Below are positions 22,602 to 32,133 of a stretch of 64,000 nucleotides of DNA, in pieces. The stretch is from positions 1,860,001 through 1,924,000 of the forward strand of contig NZ_FQWU01000001.1 of the NCBI RefSeq assembly GCF_900129765.1. Reading direction: 5' to 3'. The position numbers were made by a program, and so were the translations under genes. The notes beneath the pieces are model-generated. The model was given only the letters and a program-made list of their open reading frames with translations. It had not been told where the DNA came from and did not search any database. The number at the start of each line of letters is the position of its first letter. Within the stretch, counting starts at the first letter, position 1. Source of the DNA: Massilia sp. CF038. GTDB lineage: Bacteria > Pseudomonadota > Gammaproteobacteria > Burkholderiales > Burkholderiaceae_D.

Positions 22602-23480
22602 TCACAGATCGTTGCGCAAAATGGTGTCCAGGCCGAAGCACTGGCGCCGGCTTTGGTTGTGCGACAGCGGTTCGCCGCCGATGGTCCTGGCTTTGTCATA
22701 AAACCAGTTGCTGCCGGCCCCGGCGGCACTGCTGCAGTTAATGAAACCGTCCGAGCAGCTGTTCAGCCAGGCCTGGGTCACTTCCAGGCCCACGTTCAGG
22801 CCGTATCCGCCGCAGTAGCTGTCGCCGTCCAGCGGCGAGGTGTCGACGTCGGTGCCCACCACGCTGTAGAAAGGTTTGGGCAGAGCCGGGCGCCCCGCGG
22901 TCCCGTAGAGCCAGTTGGCGTTGTAGCTGGCCATCCACGACACTTGCTGCTGGCGCACCGCGTCGCTCTTGTAGCCCAGCAGCCAGCCGAGCGACGATTC
23001 GAACACGTTGCCGCTGATGGTCGCGTCGGCCAGCGGCGTGCCCAGCGAGGAGGGCGCAATCGCATTCACCCAGCGGATGGCCTTGATGATGGCCGGGTAG
23101 CGGCTGTCGCGGGTCGGGTTGGACATGAGCCAGCGCACCACATTGCCACCGTTGGAATGGCTCTCGACGACCAGGTCGGTAATGTTGTTATTGACGATGA
23201 AGGGGTATAACTGGTCTGCCAGGCAGCCGGAGGCACCCGCAGCCCACATGTATTGGCTGAAGTCGCAGTTGATCACGATGACCAGATTGCGGTTCGGCAG
23301 CCCTTGCCTGACCGAGTCGATCATGGCTTGAGTCCAGTATTCCTTGGCCGCGTCCGGGTGGTGACCGGTGCCATGCACAAAGGCCAGGCCGGTATTGCCG
23401 GCGGCGGCTGCCGTCAAGACGCTCAGCAGCGCCGCTCCCAGCAAGGGGCGCATCATATTTTTTATCATTTTATTGGTCAT
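22602..23480 (-). CDS. Secreted alpha/beta hydrolase (lipase-like)
   Basis: A 292-residue protein with a signal peptide (MIKNMMRPLLGAALLSVLTA, cleavage near AAA-GNT). An oxyanion-type FVHGTGHHPD begins the mature chain; the nucleophile elbow is probably ESHSNGGNVV (Ser in HSN, a variant of GxSxG). Six or more cysteines in the second half (YCGGYG, NSCSDGFINCSS) suggest disulphides, as in secreted enzymes. GGAG precedes the ATG at 23480. First gene of an operon with the DUF4785 gene. Confidence 0.75.
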   Translation of the reverse strand: MTNKMIKNMMRPLLGAALLSVLTAAAAGNTGLAFVHGTGHHPDAAKEYWTQAMIDSVRQGLPNRNLVIVINCDFSQYMWAAGASGCLADQLYPFIVNNNITDLVVESHSNGGNVVRWLMSNPTRDSRYPAIIKAIRWVNAIAPSSLGTPLADATISGNVFESSLGWLLGYKSDAVRQQQVSWMASYNANWLYGTAGRPALPKPFYSVVGTDVDTSPLDGDSYCGGYGLNVGLEVTQAWLNSCSDGFINCSSAAGAGSNWFYDKARTIGGEPLSHNQSRRQCFGLDTILRNDL

Positions 23481-23665
23481 CCATATCTCCATGGTTCTTC
23501 GCGACAATCGCCGTTTGATGCTAGGCGCATGCCAATTACTGATCGTGTACAGATGCCGATTTCGCCAATTATTTCCGCTGCGCACAATTGAAATTAATTA
23601 ATCATTGATTTTGTTGTTCAAGTGATAAACTCCAGTTTCTACAATCCAACCTTCTTGGAGCACGC

Positions 23666-24532
23666 ATGAGCAACGAAACGAGCGGTCATCTGGCAGCAGT
23701 CCTGAAAGACAATCACCAAACCTTGCTGGATGGGTGGATGAGCACCATGTTGTCACGCCTGGTTCGTCGCGATCGCAGTGCCGAAGCTGAAATTCACCAG
23801 CAAGCCAACCGCTTGCTGCCCTTGCTGGCGCAGGCCACCGGCCAGGGCCGCAGCTACGATATCGATACGCCTGCCTGGGGCGACGTGCGTCACCTGCTGA
23901 CCGAAATTTCCCAGTCGCGTGTGCGGCAGGGCTTTACCCCGATTGAAACGGCGCAGTTTGTTTTCTCGCTGAAGGACCCCTTGTTCGCACTGCTGCGGAA
24001 CAAGATGAAAGACGACCTCTCCGCCATGGTGGAAGAGACCTCGGACACCGGTTCCTTGATCGACAAACTGGGTCTGTTCACCATCGAGGAATACCAGAAG
24101 ACCCGCGAGAGCGTGATCCTGCGCCAGCAGCAGGAACTGCTGGAACTGTCCACGCCTGTGGTGCAACTGTGGCGCGACGTGCTGGCCCTGCCGCTGATCG
24201 GCACGCTGGATAGCGCACGCACCCAGGTGGTGATGGAAAATCTGCTGCAAAAGATCATCGATACCGGGGCCTCCATCGCCATCATCGACATTACCGGCGT
24301 GCCGACGGTTGACACCCTGGTGGCCCAGCACTTGCTCAAAACGGTGGCGGCAGCGCGGCTGATGGGCGCCGATTGCATCATCAGCGGTATCCGTCCGCAA
24401 ATTGCCCAAACCATCGTCCACCTGGGCGTGAACCTGGAAGACGTCATCACCAAGGCAACCCTGGCCGATGCCTTCCTGGTCGCGCTGAAACGCGTGGGCG
24501 CTTCGGTCAAGTACAACGAACAAGCAGACTGA
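23666..24532 (+). CDS. rsbR: RsbR-type stressosome sensor (RsbRD-like N-terminus plus STAS)
   Basis: A 288-residue stressosome scaffold/sensor. The N-terminal helical region (about 1-150) resembles the RsbRD N-terminal domain rather than the globin-like one of B. subtilis RsbRA. The C-terminal STAS domain (about 165-280) has the phospho-threonine motif TVDT (Thr217) and a second candidate in RPQIAQT (Thr249). In the family these sites are phosphorylated by RsbT. First gene of a tightly packed operon with rsbS and rsbT 7 and 27 bp apart. Signal sensed unknown. Confidence 0.88.
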   Translation: MSNETSGHLAAVLKDNHQTLLDGWMSTMLSRLVRRDRSAEAEIHQQANRLLPLLAQATGQGRSYDIDTPAWGDVRHLLTEISQSRVRQGFTPIETAQFVFSLKDPLFALLRNKMKDDLSAMVEETSDTGSLIDKLGLFTIEEYQKTRESVILRQQQELLELSTPVVQLWRDVLALPLIGTLDSARTQVVMENLLQKIIDTGASIAIIDITGVPTVDTLVAQHLLKTVAAARLMGADCIISGIRPQIAQTIVHLGVNLEDVITKATLADAFLVALKRVGASVKYNEQAD

Positions 24533-24539
24533 GCGCACC

Positions 24540-24896
24540 ATGGACCGCATTCCGATTTTAAAGATGGGTAACCTGCTGCTGGTGACCATTCAGGTCGACA
24601 TGCACGACAGGCTGGCCATGACGCTGCAGGACGACCTGACGGCACGCATCGTCAAGGACCGCGCCCGTGGCGTCCTGATCGATATCTCCGCGCTCGACAT
24701 TGTCGACTCCTTTATCGGCCGCATGATCAGCAACACGGCCTCCATGGCACGCATTCTGGATGCCAGCACCGTGCTGGTCGGCATGCAGCCGGCGGTCGCG
24801 ATCACCCTGGTGGAGCTGGGGCTGCGCCTGGAAGGCGTGCGCACGGCGCTGAATGTGGATCAGGGTATCAAACTGCTCAAGCGTAGCGGCATTTGA
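24540..24896 (+). CDS. rsbS: RsbS-type STAS anti-sigma-factor antagonist
   Basis: A 118-residue stand-alone STAS domain. The phosphorylation motif IVDSFIGRM puts Ser57 at the position of the serine phosphorylated in B. subtilis RsbS. RsbS forms the stressosome core with RsbR and holds RsbT until stress phosphorylation releases it. It begins 7 bp after rsbR. Confidence 0.92.
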   Translation: MDRIPILKMGNLLLVTIQVDMHDRLAMTLQDDLTARIVKDRARGVLIDISALDIVDSFIGRMISNTASMARILDASTVLVGMQPAVAITLVELGLRLEGVRTALNVDQGIKLLKRSGI

Positions 24897-24923
24897 AGAC
24901 CCAAGTGCAGACTGGACATTTTC

Positions 24924-25337
24924 GTGACCGATAACAATGGTGTTCGTACCTTGCCGCTTCGCACCGACGAAGACGTCGTGCGCATGCGGCAGGCGGTGCG
25001 CGAACAAATGATTGCGCTCGGCTTCAGCTTGATCGATCAGACCAAGATCGTGACGGCCGCCAGCGAGCTGGCACGCAATACATTGCGTTACGGCGGCGGT
25101 GGCGAGGGCCACCTCGAGCGCGTGCAAAATGGCATGCGCCAGGGCTTGTCACTGGCCTTTTCCGACCAGGGGCCCGGCATTCCCGATATCGAGCTGGCCC
25201 TGCGTGACGGTTACACCTCGGGCGGCGGCATGGGCCTGGGCTTGAGTGGGGCCAAACGACTGTCGGACGAATTCGACATTACCACAGCAGTGGGTGCAGG
25301 AACTACCGTAAAGATCGTCAAATGGAAACCGTTTTAG
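24924..25337 (+). CDS. rsbT: RsbT-type serine/threonine kinase (GHKL fold)
   Basis: A 137-residue switch kinase. ATP-binding boxes are intact: N box ELARNTLRYG (Asn52), G1 box SDQGPGIPD (residues 80-88), G2 box GGGMGLGLSGAKRL (100-113). It would phosphorylate RsbR and RsbS and, when released, activate a downstream partner. GTG start at 24924. The last 16 bp overlap the following gene, implying coupled translation. Confidence 0.92.
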   Translation: MTDNNGVRTLPLRTDEDVVRMRQAVREQMIALGFSLIDQTKIVTAASELARNTLRYGGGGEGHLERVQNGMRQGLSLAFSDQGPGIPDIELALRDGYTSGGGMGLGLSGAKRLSDEFDITTAVGAGTTVKIVKWKPF

Positions 25338-26350
25338 GCAGCGAAAGCCGCCAGTTGCGGTTCAGTATCAACGAATCGACCCAAGTTGCGGCCGTGCGCC
25401 GCGCCGCCAGCGATCTTGCCAGCGAACTTGGCTTTGGCGAGAGCGGCGCCGGCCAGGTGGCCATCGTGGCGACGGAAGCGGGCACCAATATTCTCAAGCA
25501 TGCAAGCCATGGCGAGATGTTTTTGCGCCGTCTTCAGCGCGATGGCGTGCCTGGCATCGAACTGCTGGCACTGGACCGCGGACCCGGCATGGGCAATGTG
25601 GCAGGCAGCATGCTGGACGGCGCTTCAACCACCGGCACCTACGGTGGCGGCCTCGGGGCGATGCACCGCTTGAGCCAGGAATTTGATATCTATACTGCCC
25701 CGGGCAAGGGAACGGTGATTGCCATGGCGCTATGGGCGAACGGCGCTGCACCGCCGCCCAGTGCTTTTGAGTACGGCGCGCTTTGCCAGCCCATTTCCGG
25801 TGAAACTGCATGTGGCGACGCCTGGTCGCTTGCCGACGATCCCACCACCGGCCTGGTGTTGCTGGCCGACGGCCTGGGCCACGGACCCCAGGCAGCGTTG
25901 GCGTCCGAGGGCGCGGCCATGGTGCTGGCGCGCCATCACGACTATCCCGCCGCCGCTTTGCTGGAAGAGGCGCACGAAGCCTTGCGCGGTACCCGCGGCG
26001 CCGCTGTGTCGGTCGCCCGCATCGATACCCGCAATGGCGTGCTGCAGTACGCTGGCGTGGGCAACATCGCAGCGCATGTCTACAACCAGGATGGCAGCGG
26101 ACGGCGTCAGCTGGTCTCGCACAACGGTATTGTGGGCAGCAATCTGCGCAAGGTGCAGGAGTTTTCCACGCCGTGGCCGGCCGGCGCGATTCTGATCATG
26201 CACTCCGATGGCCTGGCGTCGCGCTGGGATCTGACTGACTATCCGGGCATCTTTCAGTGCCATCCACGCGTGCTGGCCGCGCTGTTATACCGCGACTTTA
26301 CCCGTGGCAGGGACGACGTCGGCATCATTGTCGTGCGCGACCACTGCTAG
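25322..26350 (+). CDS. RsbX-like phosphatase fused to an N-terminal GHKL ATPase domain
   Basis: A 342-residue two-domain protein. Residues 1-140 are an RsbT/RsbW-like ATPase with N box EAGTNILKH (Asn56) and G1 box DRGPGMGN (85-92). Residues 150-342 are a SpoIIE/PP2C serine phosphatase with metal-binding positions in CGDAW (164-168), LADGLGHG (Asp183), HSDGLASRW (Asp296) and GRDDVGIIV (Asp331/332). B. subtilis RsbX is phosphatase only; the fused ATPase suggests a protein that can both phosphorylate or bind and dephosphorylate stressosome partners. It overlaps rsbT by 16 bp. Confidence 0.88.
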   Translation: METVLGSESRQLRFSINESTQVAAVRRAASDLASELGFGESGAGQVAIVATEAGTNILKHASHGEMFLRRLQRDGVPGIELLALDRGPGMGNVAGSMLDGASTTGTYGGGLGAMHRLSQEFDIYTAPGKGTVIAMALWANGAAPPPSAFEYGALCQPISGETACGDAWSLADDPTTGLVLLADGLGHGPQAALASEGAAMVLARHHDYPAAALLEEAHEALRGTRGAAVSVARIDTRNGVLQYAGVGNIAAHVYNQDGSGRRQLVSHNGIVGSNLRKVQEFSTPWPAGAILIMHSDGLASRWDLTDYPGIFQCHPRVLAALLYRDFTRGRDDVGIIVVRDHC

Positions 26351-26359
26351 GAGAACCAA

Positions 26360-28141
26360 GTGAGCTTGCGTATCCTGACCCAGACCATTCGCGCCGAGCT
26401 CGACGTCGTCGCCTCGCGTCAGCGGGCACGCCAGATTGCGGCCTTGTGCGGCTTTGGCGCGCAGGACCAGGCCCGCATCGCCACGGCGGTGTCGGAACTG
26501 GCGCGCAATGTATTCAGCTATGTGGGAAGCGGTCGCATCAGTTTCTCGATCGAAGGCAGCACCGCGCCGCAGCTGCTGGTCATTACGATTGAAGACAAGG
26601 GCACAGGCATCGCTCAGCTTGATCTGGTGCTGTCTGGGCGCTACCAGTCGTCCACTGGCATGGGGCTGGGTCTGCTGGGCGCGCGCCGCATGATGGACCA
26701 GTTCGAGATCGACACCGGTCCTGGCGGCACCACCATTGTATTGCGCAAGCTGCTGCCTTCGGGCAGTCCGGTCATGACAGCGGCCCTGATTGGGGAAGTC
26801 GGTGGCCAGTTGGCGGGCCTGGCGGCCGACGTGACTTTGTCTGAAATGCAGCAACAGAATAAAGAGCTGCTGGCCACGCTGGCAGAACTGAAAACACGCC
26901 AGGACGAATTGCTGGAACTGACGCGCGAACTGGAAGATACCAATCGCGGCGTGGTGGCCCTGTACGCCGAGCTGGACGAAAAAGCCGACCACTTGCGCCG
27001 CGCCGATGACATGAAGTCGCGCTTTCTGTCAAACATGAGTCACGAGTTTCGAACGCCGCTCAGTTCGATTCGCGCGCTGTCGCGCCTGTTAATTGACCGC
27101 GTCGACGGCGAACTCAACGGCGAGCAGGACAAGCAAGCGCGCTACATTCTGTCCAGCGCCGAGGCCTTGACAGACCTGGTCGATGACTTGCTGGACCTGG
27201 CCAAGATCGAGGCGGGCAAGATCGATGTACGCCCGGTCCAGTTCGATGTGGGCGAGATGTTCAGCGCCTTGCGCGGCATGCTGCGTCCTTTATTGGTCAG
27301 CAATACGGTCGACTTGGTGTTCGACGAGCCCGATGCGCCCATCTCGATGTACACCGATGAAGCCAAGCTATCGCAGATTCTGCGCAATTTTATTTCGAAT
27401 GCCCTTAAGTTTACCGAGCGTGGCGAAGTGCGCGTGTCCGCACGCGTGATAGCCGGCGGCACCGTGGAGTTTGCGGTGAAAGATACCGGCCTTGGCATTG
27501 CTCCCGCCAACCAGCAATTGATTTTCGAAGAGTTCAGCCAGGTGGAAAACGCCCTGCAAAGCCGCGTCAAGGGGACTGGCCTGGGCCTGCCCCTGTGCCG
27601 CAAGCTGGCGCTGTTGCTGGGCGGCGAAGTCAATGTCGAAAGTACGCTGGGGGAAGGCTCCACTTTCCGCGCGACGGTAGCCCTGCAGTACAGTGCACGG
27701 CCAGGGACGGCGCCGGATGCGCACGAGCTCGCAGGCGGCGTACCGGATGGCATCCCGATCCTCGTGGTAGAAGATAACCCGGGCGTCGTATTGCTATACA
27801 AGACTTTTTTTCGCGACTCGCCGTTTCGGATGGTGGCGGCGCGCAGTATCTGGGAAGCGGATCAGGCCCTGCGCGCCGTGACGCCTGCCGCCGTCGTGCT
27901 CGACCTGTATCTGACCGGCGAAGACACCTGGCGCTGGCTGTCCGACTTCAAAAGCGATCCGGCGTGCCGCCATGTTCCCGTGATCGTGGCATCTGAAGTA
28001 GAGGATCCTGGGAAGGCCTTTGCGCTGGGTGCGTCCGCGTATTTCAAAAAGCCCTTACGGCGCGAGGATTTAATTCAACGGCTCAGCGAGCTCTGCGCGC
28101 TGGCGCCTGACGACAAGGGGCGCGGTGCTGCACCGCGGTAA
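26360..28141 (+). CDS. Hybrid histidine kinase with an N-terminal RsbT-like ATPase domain
   Basis: A 593-residue soluble kinase without membrane segments. Residues 1-130 are a third RsbT-like GHKL domain (N box SELARNVF, G1 EDKGTGIAQ, G2 TGMGLGLLGARRM). A coiled coil (about 160-215) leads to a HisKA domain with His228 in NMSHEFRTP, an HATPase_c domain (Asn347, G1 DTGLGI, G2 GTGLGLPL), and a C-terminal receiver (residues 467-585) with Asp515 and Lys564. GTG start with a GGAGAA site. The domain order joins partner switching and phosphorelay in one chain. Confidence 0.9.
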   Translation: MSLRILTQTIRAELDVVASRQRARQIAALCGFGAQDQARIATAVSELARNVFSYVGSGRISFSIEGSTAPQLLVITIEDKGTGIAQLDLVLSGRYQSSTGMGLGLLGARRMMDQFEIDTGPGGTTIVLRKLLPSGSPVMTAALIGEVGGQLAGLAADVTLSEMQQQNKELLATLAELKTRQDELLELTRELEDTNRGVVALYAELDEKADHLRRADDMKSRFLSNMSHEFRTPLSSIRALSRLLIDRVDGELNGEQDKQARYILSSAEALTDLVDDLLDLAKIEAGKIDVRPVQFDVGEMFSALRGMLRPLLVSNTVDLVFDEPDAPISMYTDEAKLSQILRNFISNALKFTERGEVRVSARVIAGGTVEFAVKDTGLGIAPANQQLIFEEFSQVENALQSRVKGTGLGLPLCRKLALLLGGEVNVESTLGEGSTFRATVALQYSARPGTAPDAHELAGGVPDGIPILVVEDNPGVVLLYKTFFRDSPFRMVAARSIWEADQALRAVTPAAVVLDLYLTGEDTWRWLSDFKSDPACRHVPVIVASEVEDPGKAFALGASAYFKKPLRREDLIQRLSELCALAPDDKGRGAAPR

Positions 28142-28146
28142 ATTCA

Positions 28147-29658
28147 ATGACGACTGAACAGCAAGCAGAGCTCATTCTGAACGTGGACGATACTGTCGCG
28201 GCGCGTTACGCCAAGACACGGATCCTCACCCGTGCCGGCTATCGCGTGATCGAAGCGGCTAGCGGCGCGGAAGCGTTGCAGCGCGCGCGCGACGATGCGC
28301 CTGATTTGGTTCTTCTTGACACCAAACTGCCGGACATTAACGGCTTTGAAGTGTGTCGCCGGCTGAAAAGCGATCCCGGCACACGCATGGTGCTGGTGCT
28401 GCAGACGTCCGCCTCGTACGTGGGCACGCCGGACAAGATTCGCGGACTGGACAGTGGCGCCGATAATTATCTGTTTGAGCCGATTGAGCCGGATGAGCTG
28501 GTTGCCAATGTGCGTGCCTTGATGCGCCTGGGCCGGGTCGAGCGCGAGCTGCGTGACGTCGATCGCCGCAAGGACGAATTTCTCGCGGTGCTGGCGCATG
28601 AATTGCGTAACCCGCTGGCGCCGATCCGCAATGCCGCCGAACTGTTGTGCAAGCTTGACCCTGAGGTGCCGGCTGCGCAAAACCACGCCCGCCAGCTCAT
28701 TTTGCGGCAGAGCGCGCACATGGTGCGCCTGGTCGACGACTTGCTCGACGTGTCGCGCATCTCGCAGGGCAAGATTGCCTTGCATCGAGCCGTGGTCGAG
28801 CTGAGCCCGATCCTCGACGCGGCAATTGAAACAGCCCAGCCGAACATTTCCCAACGCAAGCATGCTTTGACGGTGACGCTGCCCGACTTACCGCTTTGGG
28901 TACATGCTGATGCTGTCAGATTCGCACAAGTGATCGCGAACCTGCTCAACAATGCATCCAAATTCACGCCGCCGGGCGGCCGCATCGAGGTCGCGGCCGA
29001 GCTGGTGGACGAGCAAGTGGTCATCAGTGTGAGCGATAACGGCATCGGTATCGCTGCCCATCATCTTTCTTCCATCTTTGATCTGTTTGCGCAGGGCGGT
29101 CACAGCGCCGACCGCGTCAAGGACGGTCTGGGTATCGGCTTGTCCTTGTCGCGCAAGCTGGTTGCTTTGCACGACGGAACGCTGGCCGTCAGTAGCGAAG
29201 GGGAGGGCTTGGGCAGCCGCTTTACCGTTACCTTGCCCGCGCTGGCGCCTGCAGAGTTGGCGGCGCCGATCCTCGAGGCACATGCTGTCATGAATGGCCG
29301 CCGCATTCTCATCGTCGACGACAATGTGGATTCTGCCGAGACCCTGGCCGCGCTGCTTGGCTACTATGGCCATCAAGTCGGCATTGCCCACGATGGCGAA
29401 TCGGCCATTGCCATCGCCAGTACCACCAAGCCGGACATCGTGTTCATGGACGTGGGCTTGCCCGATATGAGCGGGCTGGCTGCTGCCGAGCGCATCCGCG
29501 CGAACGCGGAACCGGCGGCTATCAAGATCGTCGCCCTGACCGGTTATGGCAGTGACGGAGACCGCGCAGCAGCGCAGTTGAGCGGCATCGATGAATACCT
29601 GACCAAGCCGGTCACCCTTGAGCGGCTGACCGAGACCATCGCCCGTTTGTCGAATTAG
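28147..29658 (+). CDS. Receiver-histidine kinase-receiver hybrid protein
   Basis: A 503-residue soluble protein: N-terminal receiver (about 8-125, phospho-acceptor Asp58 in VLLDTKLPD), HisKA with His151 in VLAHELRNP, HATPase_c (about 260-375, G1 DNGIGIA, G2 DGLGIGLSL), and C-terminal receiver (about 385-500, LIVDDN, FMDVGLPDMSG, LTGYG, TKPV). In the first receiver the usual switch Lys is replaced: NYLFEPIEP has Glu111 there. No DNA-binding or output domain is present, so it relays phosphate. It starts 5 bp after the previous gene and ends the operon. Confidence 0.9.
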   Translation: MTTEQQAELILNVDDTVAARYAKTRILTRAGYRVIEAASGAEALQRARDDAPDLVLLDTKLPDINGFEVCRRLKSDPGTRMVLVLQTSASYVGTPDKIRGLDSGADNYLFEPIEPDELVANVRALMRLGRVERELRDVDRRKDEFLAVLAHELRNPLAPIRNAAELLCKLDPEVPAAQNHARQLILRQSAHMVRLVDDLLDVSRISQGKIALHRAVVELSPILDAAIETAQPNISQRKHALTVTLPDLPLWVHADAVRFAQVIANLLNNASKFTPPGGRIEVAAELVDEQVVISVSDNGIGIAAHHLSSIFDLFAQGGHSADRVKDGLGIGLSLSRKLVALHDGTLAVSSEGEGLGSRFTVTLPALAPAELAAPILEAHAVMNGRRILIVDDNVDSAETLAALLGYYGHQVGIAHDGESAIAIASTTKPDIVFMDVGLPDMSGLAAAERIRANAEPAAIKIVALTGYGSDGDRAAAQLSGIDEYLTKPVTLERLTETIARLSN

Positions 29659-29925: not shown

Positions 29926-32133
29926 ATGCCCTTATTTACTCGCTCTACATTCCCTCTGCTGATTGCGCTGTCAGCTGCTGCCAGCGCATTTGCGGCCAAC
30001 CCGGCAGACACAGCGCGCCAGCCAATGGCAAGCGCCGCCCTGGCAGCACCGGCCTGGTACGCGGCCAAGATGAACAGTGCTGCCGCATTCGACAGTTTTT
30101 CCCGGAACGGCGGGGTACTCAGCACCTCGGGCCGCTCGCTCAAGTTCTTGATTGATAACCGCAACCCATCCGCGCGCACCATCAATTTCATCAATGGGAA
30201 TTACACGGAAAATGGCAGCTCGCCCGATTACGTGAAGTACCACTATGACTTTGCCCGCCGCCGCCTGAACATTGGCGACAGCGTGGCCAGCTTCAATAAC
30301 AGCACCTACTTCGCGCAGACCAAGAAGTACTTTGCCGGCACCATCCAGACTTATACCCTCGGCGACGCGACCACGCCGATCTACGCGGTGCAGTTCTACC
30401 CGGACGACGTGGTGTCCGAATCGGCCTTGCTCGACGCCTTGACGACCGTTCAGCGCGCATTGCCGATACCCGGCGCCAAGCTGGCCTTCGTTGCCACGGG
30501 AACCCAGCAGACCTTCAAGAACATCGCCACGCAGGCCCGCGCCTTGAACATCCAGTTGCTGACCATCGACCAAGTGCTCGGCGACATCAAGTTCATCGGG
30601 CTCAATCCAGGGGAGGCCTGGGGCTACCTGCGCCTGTTCCCAAGCGACGCGAACGCCCTGCGTCCTACCGACATTGCCGTGTTTGACGAATTGCCCCTCG
30701 ATTTGTCGGTGCTGGCGGGCGTCATGACGCGTGCTTACCAGGACGTCAATTCGCACGTCAATCTGAAATCGAAGGAACGCAATACGCCCAATATGGTGTT
30801 GCGTGATGCCAGCATCAGCCATCCGCGCCTGCAGCAATGGGCCGACCGTCCCGTGCATCTGGTGGTGACCTCGCAAGGTTACACGCTGGAGTCGACCACG
30901 CCAGCGATCATCGCCGAGAAGCTGGCCCAAAAGCTCAACCGTCCCTGGACAGCGCTGCCCGTGGTGAACGAAACGCGTCTCCAGAGTTTTGACGAACTGT
31001 GCCCGAGCTTGAAAACCGCCACTGCCAGCGCCAGCTGCTTTGACGCGGCCAAACGCTACGGTGGCAAGAGCACCGGCCTGGCCTTCCTCGCACGCGGCGT
31101 GGGGCGTGCCGCCACGCCAGGCAGCATCAGTGCGCCGTTTGCCTATGACCTGACGCCAGCCGGCCTGGCCGTGCCGGTGCAGTTCTACCGCGATATGCTC
31201 ATCATGCCGGAAAATCTGGCGCTCAAGATCAAGGTCGATGCGCTGGCCGCAGCCGAAAAGGCGGGCTACTTGTCGCCGCAGGAACGCGACGCCATGGTGA
31301 CCGAGGTGCAAGCCCTGTTCTACAAAGCCAAGTTGCCCGTCGGTCTGGCCGATGCCGTCAAGGCGCGCTTGCTGACCGTTAGCCCTGGCACCACGAAATT
31401 CAAGTTCCGCTCTAGCGCGACGTCGGAAGACGTGGCCAATTTCAATGGCGCCGGCCTGTACGACAGCTTTGCGATCGAACCGGAAAAGACCGATAACGCC
31501 GATTTGTCCTGTGTCGTTGAAGCCGACAGTGTGGCAGGTGTGGTGACCAAGCTGAAAGTCAAGCCGAAGACCGTGCAGTGCGGTATCAAGGCCGTGTACG
31601 CAAGCTTGTGGAATTCGCGCGCCCTGGTGGAACGCAGCTTTGCCCGTCTTGACCACGCCACGGCCGGCATGGGCTTGAGCATCAATCCTTCCTATGGCGA
31701 CGAACTGGCCAACCTGGTACTGGTGACCCGTGTGCTCGGCAGCGATGTGTATGGCTACTCGCTGTCGGTGCAGGTGGGCGAAAATCTGGTGACCAACCCG
31801 ACCCCGGGCACCATCTCCGAGTACACCATTGCCTCGTTCTCGGACCCGGGTCGCCCGCCGCGGTTCACGCCAGCGCGCTTTGCCAAGCCGACGCCGACCG
31901 AGCCGGTACGCACCACGCCCATCCTGACGCAAAAGCAGATGAGCGATATTGTGGAAGTGGCGCGGAAAATCGAAGTGGCGTACTGCAAGGCCAAGCCAAC
32001 GTACTATCCGCGTGGTGACTGCAATAATGTGTGGCTCGATAAGAACAAGCCCTTGTCACTCGACATGGAAGTGAAGATTCTGCCTGACGGACATTATCAA
32101 TTCAAACAAGTGCGCGAGTTCCACGGCCGCTAG
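29926..32133 (+). CDS. Exported protein with a PEP/pyruvate-binding (PPDK_N-like) domain
   Basis: A 735-residue protein with a signal peptide (MPLFTRSTFPLLIALSAAAS, cleavage near AFA-ANP). The C-terminal part carries the ATP-grasp-like pyruvate-phosphate-dikinase N-terminal signature KFRSSATSEDVANFNGAG followed by LYDSF and, further on, VYASLWNSRALVERSF and YGDELANLV, ending with a long beta-hairpin like that closing this fold. The first 400 residues have no recognised domain. The central phosphohistidine and C-terminal TIM-barrel domains of PEP synthase are absent. Catalysis of the usual reaction is doubtful in the periplasm, which lacks ATP. Confidence 0.75.
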   Translation: MPLFTRSTFPLLIALSAAASAFAANPADTARQPMASAALAAPAWYAAKMNSAAAFDSFSRNGGVLSTSGRSLKFLIDNRNPSARTINFINGNYTENGSSPDYVKYHYDFARRRLNIGDSVASFNNSTYFAQTKKYFAGTIQTYTLGDATTPIYAVQFYPDDVVSESALLDALTTVQRALPIPGAKLAFVATGTQQTFKNIATQARALNIQLLTIDQVLGDIKFIGLNPGEAWGYLRLFPSDANALRPTDIAVFDELPLDLSVLAGVMTRAYQDVNSHVNLKSKERNTPNMVLRDASISHPRLQQWADRPVHLVVTSQGYTLESTTPAIIAEKLAQKLNRPWTALPVVNETRLQSFDELCPSLKTATASASCFDAAKRYGGKSTGLAFLARGVGRAATPGSISAPFAYDLTPAGLAVPVQFYRDMLIMPENLALKIKVDALAAAEKAGYLSPQERDAMVTEVQALFYKAKLPVGLADAVKARLLTVSPGTTKFKFRSSATSEDVANFNGAGLYDSFAIEPEKTDNADLSCVVEADSVAGVVTKLKVKPKTVQCGIKAVYASLWNSRALVERSFARLDHATAGMGLSINPSYGDELANLVLVTRVLGSDVYGYSLSVQVGENLVTNPTPGTISEYTIASFSDPGRPPRFTPARFAKPTPTEPVRTTPILTQKQMSDIVEVARKIEVAYCKAKPTYYPRGDCNNVWLDKNKPLSLDMEVKILPDGHYQFKQVREFHGR

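Follow-up and report, generated by a model that had tools for sequence, protein, structure and literature searches.

A conserved stressosome operon with RsbT-type domains fused to its phosphatase and to a two-component kinase

In stressosomes, a core of RsbR and RsbS holds RsbT; on stress RsbT phosphorylates RsbS and RsbR, and RsbX resets the complex (PMC9237108). How stressosomes without sigma-B relay their signal is an open question. The subject here is a six-gene operon in a 64,000-nucleotide stretch of the Massilia sp. CF038 genome (contig NZ_FQWU01000001.1, positions 1,860,001 to 1,924,000; hereafter the window). The stressosomes of Bacillus subtilis and Listeria share RsbR, RsbS, RsbT, RsbX and the same kinds of phosphosites with this operon, but no RsbU-RsbV-RsbW-SigB was found here. 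Pane-Farre (2005) is said to describe stressosome operons with two-component output. Such output is already published for Vibrio: in V. vulnificus the RSTX genes and two-component D1-D2 likewise run rsbR-rsbS-rsbT-rsbX and then two-component genes, with no sigma-B (PMC9237108, PMC10014275). The Massilia operon differs from that system, as described, in having RsbRD_N on RsbR, RsbT-type domains on RsbX and on a kinase, and a receiver-histidine kinase-receiver (REC-HK-REC) protein in last place. Stressosome operons with RsbU_N-histidine kinases are also known (PMC12143880); there the operon kinase is the presumed RsbT target, and the signal is believed to travel through a coiled-coil linker (PMC9237108, PMC12143880). 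As they are described, RsbU_N-kinases bear the receptor of RsbT, whereas the kinase here bears an RsbT-type domain itself, and RsbU_N was not among the Pfam matches of its gene (gene 5) at E ≤ 0.01.

The six genes are tightly packed, with successive gaps of 7, 27, -16, 9 and 5 bp (Table 1). Open reading frames (ORFs), gaps and Pfam matches all agree with an earlier sequence-only reading, which had named the products as RsbR, RsbS, RsbT, a phosphatase and a hybrid kinase each with an RsbT-type domain, and REC-HK-REC. The residues it had numbered (RsbR T217, RsbS S57, RsbT N52, H228 and D515 of the hybrid kinase, and D58 and H151 of the last protein) are all correct. The parts that mark a stressosome are present, namely a sensor-plus-STAS RsbR and a STAS RsbS with their phosphosites, and an RsbT with an intact ATP site whose gene adjoins rsbRS. 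The STAS half of RsbR matches chain 7o0i_B (E = 5.7e-36), and RsbS matches the RsbS structure 6jhk (E = 1.2e-31) and 6qcm (E = 6.7e-30). The gene for the RsbX-type PP2C phosphatase lies immediately 3' of rsbT, which gives the RSTX order, and both kinases have intact His and Asp phosphosites. We refer to free RsbT as T1, to the RsbT-type domain of the phosphatase (gene 4) as T2, and to that of the hybrid kinase as T3.

Relatives were collected by scanning named genomes with a gene 4 alignment, and the window together with the best 80 of 175 relatives formed the locus set. Selected in this way, the set shows that the six genes travel together and not how frequent the module is. In 70 of the 81 loci each of the six genes could be assigned without ambiguity, which excludes a chance arrangement and upholds the earlier proposal of a stressosome operon merged with two-component genes. 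The other 11 loci are without some part, several of them through contig ends or crude ORF sorting (T1 stayed ambiguous in L088, L115 and L124); L031-L044, largely repeats of named genomes, were omitted from the count. Among 16 other sampled genomes of the same genus, 11 have a strong gene 4 match, each directly flanked on both sides by RsbT-type matches. Hosts of the full module include Oxalobacteraceae, Burkholderiaceae, Cellvibrio, Cyanobacteria, Planctomycetota and Myxococcota; Gemmatimonadota and Binatota are hosts too, with the last gene cut by a contig end. Far from being a local oddity, the arrangement recurs as a conserved module, and three RsbT-type ATPases in consecutive genes, which the sequence-only reading had called unusual, are the rule within it. 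The phosphosites are equally constant: RsbR T217 and RsbS S57 are conserved in 80/80 cases and RsbR T249 in 79/80, the exception being a Ser.

A search independent of gene 4 used an alignment of T3 plus linker, and the best 7 or 8 candidates per genome were scored. T3-kinases were found in 2 of 369 genomes of a class sample (Massilia sp. CF038 included), both adjoining T1 and T2, and in 11 of 399 genomes of an order sample (one partial), 10 of which also gave an RsbT match. In a family sample, 159 of 392 genomes gave matches at E 1e-30 among the matches listed, a figure possibly inflated by a few bare RsbT domains, since matches near 1e-31 were uninspected. Twenty places fetched from the family search comprised 17 with the full order, one rearranged and two orphans. 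In all 16 single-match genomes that were fetched, the T3-kinase lies in the operon (one rearranged). A lack of linkage to rsbRST in other genomes, which would have refuted the earlier reading, was looked for and not seen: the linkage of the kinases to rsbRST is strong; unlinked second copies also exist and are considered below.

In a tree of the RsbT-type domains from 25 loci, T1, T2 and T3 each formed one clade, with support of 95, 99 and 99, respectively, in the Shimodaira-Hasegawa-like approximate likelihood-ratio test. Each clade contains all 25 sampled loci; the three domains are thus ancient and have probably descended as a set. The tree was built on few columns and its inner forks are weak; B. 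subtilis RsbT groups with T1 and T3 with a support of 86, not starred. T3 resembles RsbT more closely than T2 does: compared with the T1 of its own locus, it has a median identity of 38.5% (75 loci), against 29.8% for T2 (78 loci).

The ATP site has fared differently in the three domains. T1 keeps the Glu, N-box Asn, G1 Asp and lid Gly in 78/78 and 35/35 copies, and T2 keeps them in 81/81 and 35/35. T3 is without the N-box Asn or G1 Asp in 17 of 78 copies from the window and named loci. Among the additional copies, taken from the class, order and family samples, the loss affects 25 of 30 non-orphans and 3 of 17 orphans. Altogether at least one of these two residues has been lost in 45 of 125 T3 copies, while the Glu is kept in 125/125 and an Arg three residues later in 123/125. 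The 78 copies of the named set and the 47 of the later set may overlap in species. L168 and L199 are counted neither among the 30 non-orphans nor among the 17 orphans, L173 (at a contig end, genome G680) is treated as non-orphan, and L207 is a contig fragment of the operon. The claim that the fused domains retain their ATP-binding residues thus stands for the window and fails for the kinase-fused T3 of many relatives. In ten genomes with both copies, loss of one or both residues affects the operon T3 in 10/10, and 9/10 orphan T3 domains retain the pair; these genomes are related, and the ten are not independent events.

The presence of Glu, Asn and Asp in all three domains of the window would suit a scheme in which T2 and T3 are active serine/threonine kinases that supply the core with three kinase inputs, T3 possibly sensing the ATP level. 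T2 may well be a kinase, since these residues are intact in every copy, and gene 4 would then encode a kinase-phosphatase enzyme. T3, however, is unlikely to be one in the 45 copies without Asn or Asp, though their operons are otherwise alike, and as an account of both domains we consider the scheme improbable.

An ATP-dead T3 with its linker (from L111, 21 sequences) was modeled with AlphaFold2 at a mean predicted local distance difference test (pLDDT) score of 86, with the linker as a helix; this is a monomer model and is silent on binding. All five PDB fold matches with E ≤ 0.001 are RsbW in complex with RsbV (best E = 2.4e-04), and the top 25 also include SpoIIAB with SpoIIAA, SiaB with SiaC, UsfX with RsfB, and CA domains of histidine kinases (RetS, HK853). 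Like RsbW, SpoIIAB, SiaB and UsfX have binding partners of the STAS or a related kind. The ATP-dead T3 is predicted to fold like the STAS-binding RsbW. The kinase activity of RsbT is reportedly not needed for activation of RsbU. RsbT activates RsbU by ordering its coiled-coil linker (PMC12143880). In docking studies RsbT adopts a catalytic pose on RsbS and, on RsbR, a non-catalytic one from which the Thr cannot reach the ATP site, and the Glu of RsbT has been proposed as the catalytic base (PMC9237128).

T3 fits a non-catalytic, STAS-bound role because it is RsbT-derived, fused to a linker, and able to lose ATP binding but not the Glu; for this reason, we read the operon as a stressosome with a tethered phosphatase and a tethered kinase. 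In this reading, to which we give about even credence, the operon would be a self-contained stressosome-phosphorelay module, with T2 and T3 as docking domains for the reset phosphatase and the output kinase. We infer the docking of T2 and T3, the direction of the switch, the path of the phosphate and the output as follows. RsbR and RsbS would form the STAS core and free T1 would be the switch kinase; the core would hold, besides its own kinase, the reset phosphatase RsbX, tethered by T2, and the output kinase, docked by T3. On stress, T1 would phosphorylate RsbS S57 and RsbR T217/T249, and T3 would then be released or re-oriented. The conserved linker helix would transmit this change to the phosphoacceptor domain (H228), and phosphate would pass to D58 of the last protein, optionally via D515. 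D58 would control the kinase (H151) and the last receiver (D435) of that protein, the output would run through a phosphotransfer protein or regulator encoded elsewhere, and RsbX would reset the core.

The phosphorelay residues are near-invariant in relatives with one exception. H228 is kept in 78/78, D58 and H151 each in 74/74, and D435 in 73/74 (one gap), but D515 is kept in 54/78. The relay through D515 that had been proposed is not supported, since this Asp is absent in 24 of the 78 relatives (13 gaps, 11 Ala). The constant route thus probably leads from the first kinase to the last protein, with D515 an optional station. The first receiver of gene 6 has Glu at position 111, where most receivers have a conserved Lys; the relatives have Glu in 65/74 and Lys in 0/74. 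This replacement suggests that switching of the receiver may be unusual.

The unlinked copies extend the question beyond the operon. Seventeen orphan T3-kinases were found (L169-L172, L193, L195, L202-L206, L208, L210, L212, L214, L216 and L219), and all 17 genomes also have the operon (split over contigs in G862), a co-occurrence that is partly built in because every orphan is the second match of its genome. A plausible but more tentative view is that the RsbT-derived domain is a portable docking tag, ATP-dead in many lineages, by which the core would hold and release several tagged kinases (that of the operon and the orphans) together with RsbX. If true, the tag would be a direct, sigma-free wiring of the stressosome hub to several phosphorelays. 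Pairing of orphans with RsbR, seen in two of the first four cases, fell to 2/17 in the wider set and is not relied on as main evidence. In the two genomes concerned, which belong to one genus, the orphan T3-kinase is transcribed divergently from an orphan RsbRD_N-STAS gene (L171, 7021-9518; L172, 6743-9240) whose STAS part is closely similar to that of the operon RsbR. Another orphan T3-kinase lies between metK and ahcY (L170, 6292-10686).

Several observations weigh against docking by T3. The T3 of the window itself has an intact ATP site, and the losses amount to far fewer than 45 events because many decayed T3 copies stem from a single family whose genomes are related. In the order sample, five operons keep the six-gene arrangement with a kinase that has the linker and no preceding GHKL domain, so T3 is dispensable. 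An RsbR gene adjoins just the two syntenic orphans just described, the other 15 of the 17 being without an RsbR neighbor. Genome G680 (98% complete) has its contig-end T3-kinase and no RsbT match. Finally, the flanks of 73 modules contained no gene family common to at least five genus labels (two clusters reached four), and thus no candidate output gene; as the flanks are not conserved, we take the unit to end with REC-HK-REC.

The T3-less kinases bear on a further explanation. They form one clade (support 100) beside a decayed-T3 kinase (support 90, not starred, midpoint root), and this position suggests that T3 was probably lost there after it had decayed. In these species free RsbT may act in trans on the linker. 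The same could hold throughout, with free RsbT acting through the kinase linker as it does on that of RsbU, and with T3 an aid to dimerization or a relic. The placement of the T3-less clade favors this, as does the linker, which is among the most conserved stretches (across 22 loci of several phyla the part ELEDTNRGVVALYAELDEKA hardly varies) and is retained in the five T3-less operons. A relic, however, would not be expected to keep the Glu in all 45 copies with a broken ATP site or an RsbW-like fold (one model), and T3 is retained across phyla. We regard this explanation as doubtful and docking by T3 as the preferred one.

The PP2C half of gene 4 finds its best matches in 3zt9 and B. subtilis RsbX (3w40), by sequence (E = 2.5e-18 and 9.2e-11) and by predicted fold (E = 4.1e-16 and 4.5e-14), so we read gene 4 as RsbX plus T2. 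An RsbU-type activator was considered and rejected on the same matches. The PDB title of 3zt9 names a bacterial stressosome; this phosphatase, which we take to be from Moorella thermoacetica, is the closest solved relative, and its 193-residue chain is the PP2C domain alone. Asp 166, 183, 296 and 332 of gene 4 presumably belong to the metal-site motifs. Gene 4 does not encode a single-domain RsbX, since an N-terminal HATPase_c_2 domain is present in 81/81 loci of the set chosen by gene 4 similarity. PP2C is also joined to an RsbW/RsbT-type domain in Rv1364c-like PP2C-RsbW fusions, of which 3ke6 is among the gene 4 fold matches; we assume that their domain order is the reverse of that in gene 4 and that they take part in sigma-factor control. 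Gene 4 relatives are also present on plasmids (107 records), with 58 of the records from Phaeobacter and 17 from Deinococcus, including D. radiodurans R1 (e.g., NC_000958.1, 27025-28044). A different operon at L177 (4383-8203) has two STAS genes, an RsbT-type gene, a PP2C gene in which no N-terminal GHKL domain was detected, a histidine kinase lacking T3 and one more GHKL gene.

The genome of Massilia sp. CF038 (5.66 Mb, 14 contigs) was searched for a sigma-B pathway. It has one SpoIIE domain and 30 HATPase_c_2 matches, of which the eight above the Pfam cut-off are T1, T2, T3 and five in frames of 458-516 amino acids (aa) that, uninspected, are taken as ordinary histidine kinases; one match below the cut-off was inspected and scores better as HATPase_c. 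STAS domains were found in RsbR, RsbS, a 556-aa frame (uninspected) and a 98-aa STAS_2 protein by mlaC. A 116-aa STAS frame was considered as a possible RsbV and rejected as the STAS_2 protein beside mlaC, a position that makes this protein MlaB-like and not RsbV. No sigma factor in the genome exceeded the SigB/F/G cut-off (best 127.6 against 234.35 bits), and seven weaker matches to that model are other sigma-70 relatives. From these domain searches the genome appears to have no RsbU-RsbV-RsbW-sigma pathway, in line with the earlier suggestion that output does not run through sigma-B.

Other stressosomes would lead one to expect a sigma factor or a second messenger as output, with the kinases as bystanders: stressosome operons have been linked to cyclic di-GMP enzymes or sigma factors (PMC9237108). 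In Moorella, according to citations in PMC4976288 and PMC12143880, a diguanylate cyclase is the output. Here, the negative domain searches for an RsbU/V/W-SigB pathway, the position of both kinases within the conserved unit and the lack of a conserved flanking family argue against this, as does the reported similarity of V. vulnificus stressosome and sensor-kinase mutants (PMC10014275), and such an output is highly improbable.

An RsbT-type domain on a kinase or on RsbX, its conservation and the T3-specific decay were not found in the literature, within a coverage that was without most subscription journals and key older reviews. For V. vulnificus it did not prove possible to demonstrate that RsbT interacts with the downstream kinase (PMC9237108). 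Here evolution has fused a switch-type domain to the presumed target kinase, and the question therefore becomes a binding test with defined domains, for which the natural T3 series (intact, ATP-dead, absent) is a ready-made mutant set. Loss of the ATP site with retention of the Glu suggests that binding without kinase activity can suffice for signaling, and the fused switch domain suggests a route by which such stress sensors could reach their targets without a sigma factor.

Table 1. Positions in the window of the operon, its genes and their domains
Feature	Coordinates	Strand	Residues and basis
Six-gene operon	23666-29658	+	Packed ORFs (ORF list, Pfam)
Gene 1, RsbR-type sensor/scaffold, 288 aa	23666..24532	+	RsbRD_N aa 9-111, STAS aa 170-269; phosphosites T217, T249
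Gene 2, RsbS, STAS protein, 118 aa	24540..24896	+	Phosphosite S57; Pfam STAS
Gene 3, RsbT switch kinase (T1), 137 aa, GTG start	24924..25337	+	E48, N52, D81; Pfam HATPase_c_2/HATPase_c
Gene 4, RsbX-type phosphatase with N-terminal RsbT-type domain, 342 aa	25322..26350	+	Pfam HATPase_c_2 and SpoIIE
T2, RsbT-type domain of gene 4, aa 18-135	25373..25726	+	E52, N56, D85
PP2C domain of RsbX type, gene 4, aa 150-339	25769..26338	+	Sequence and fold matches
Gene 5, T3-linker-histidine kinase-REC, 593 aa, GTG start	26360..28141	+	Pfam HATPase_c_2, HisKA, HATPase_c, Response_reg
T3, RsbT-type domain of gene 5 kinase, aa 1-138	26360..26773	+	E46, N50, D79
Linker LEDTNRGVVALYAELDEKA, gene 5 aa 191-209, between T3 and phosphoacceptor domain	26930..26986	+	Predicted helical; conservation
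HisKA and HATPase_c of gene 5 kinase	27011..27685	+	H228; Pfam
C-terminal receiver of gene 5 kinase, not conserved	27758..28084	+	D515; Pfam
Gene 6, REC1-HisKA-HATPase_c-REC2, 503 aa, module end	28147..29658	+	D58 (REC1), H151 (HisKA), D435 (REC2); Pfam

Promoter and terminator scans gave numbers no different from those of shuffled sequence. Two neighboring genes lie outside the module. The upstream one (22602-23585, minus strand) encodes a protein without a Pfam or NCBIfam match at E 0.01, and the product of the downstream one (29926-32133, plus strand) has a PPDK_N match.

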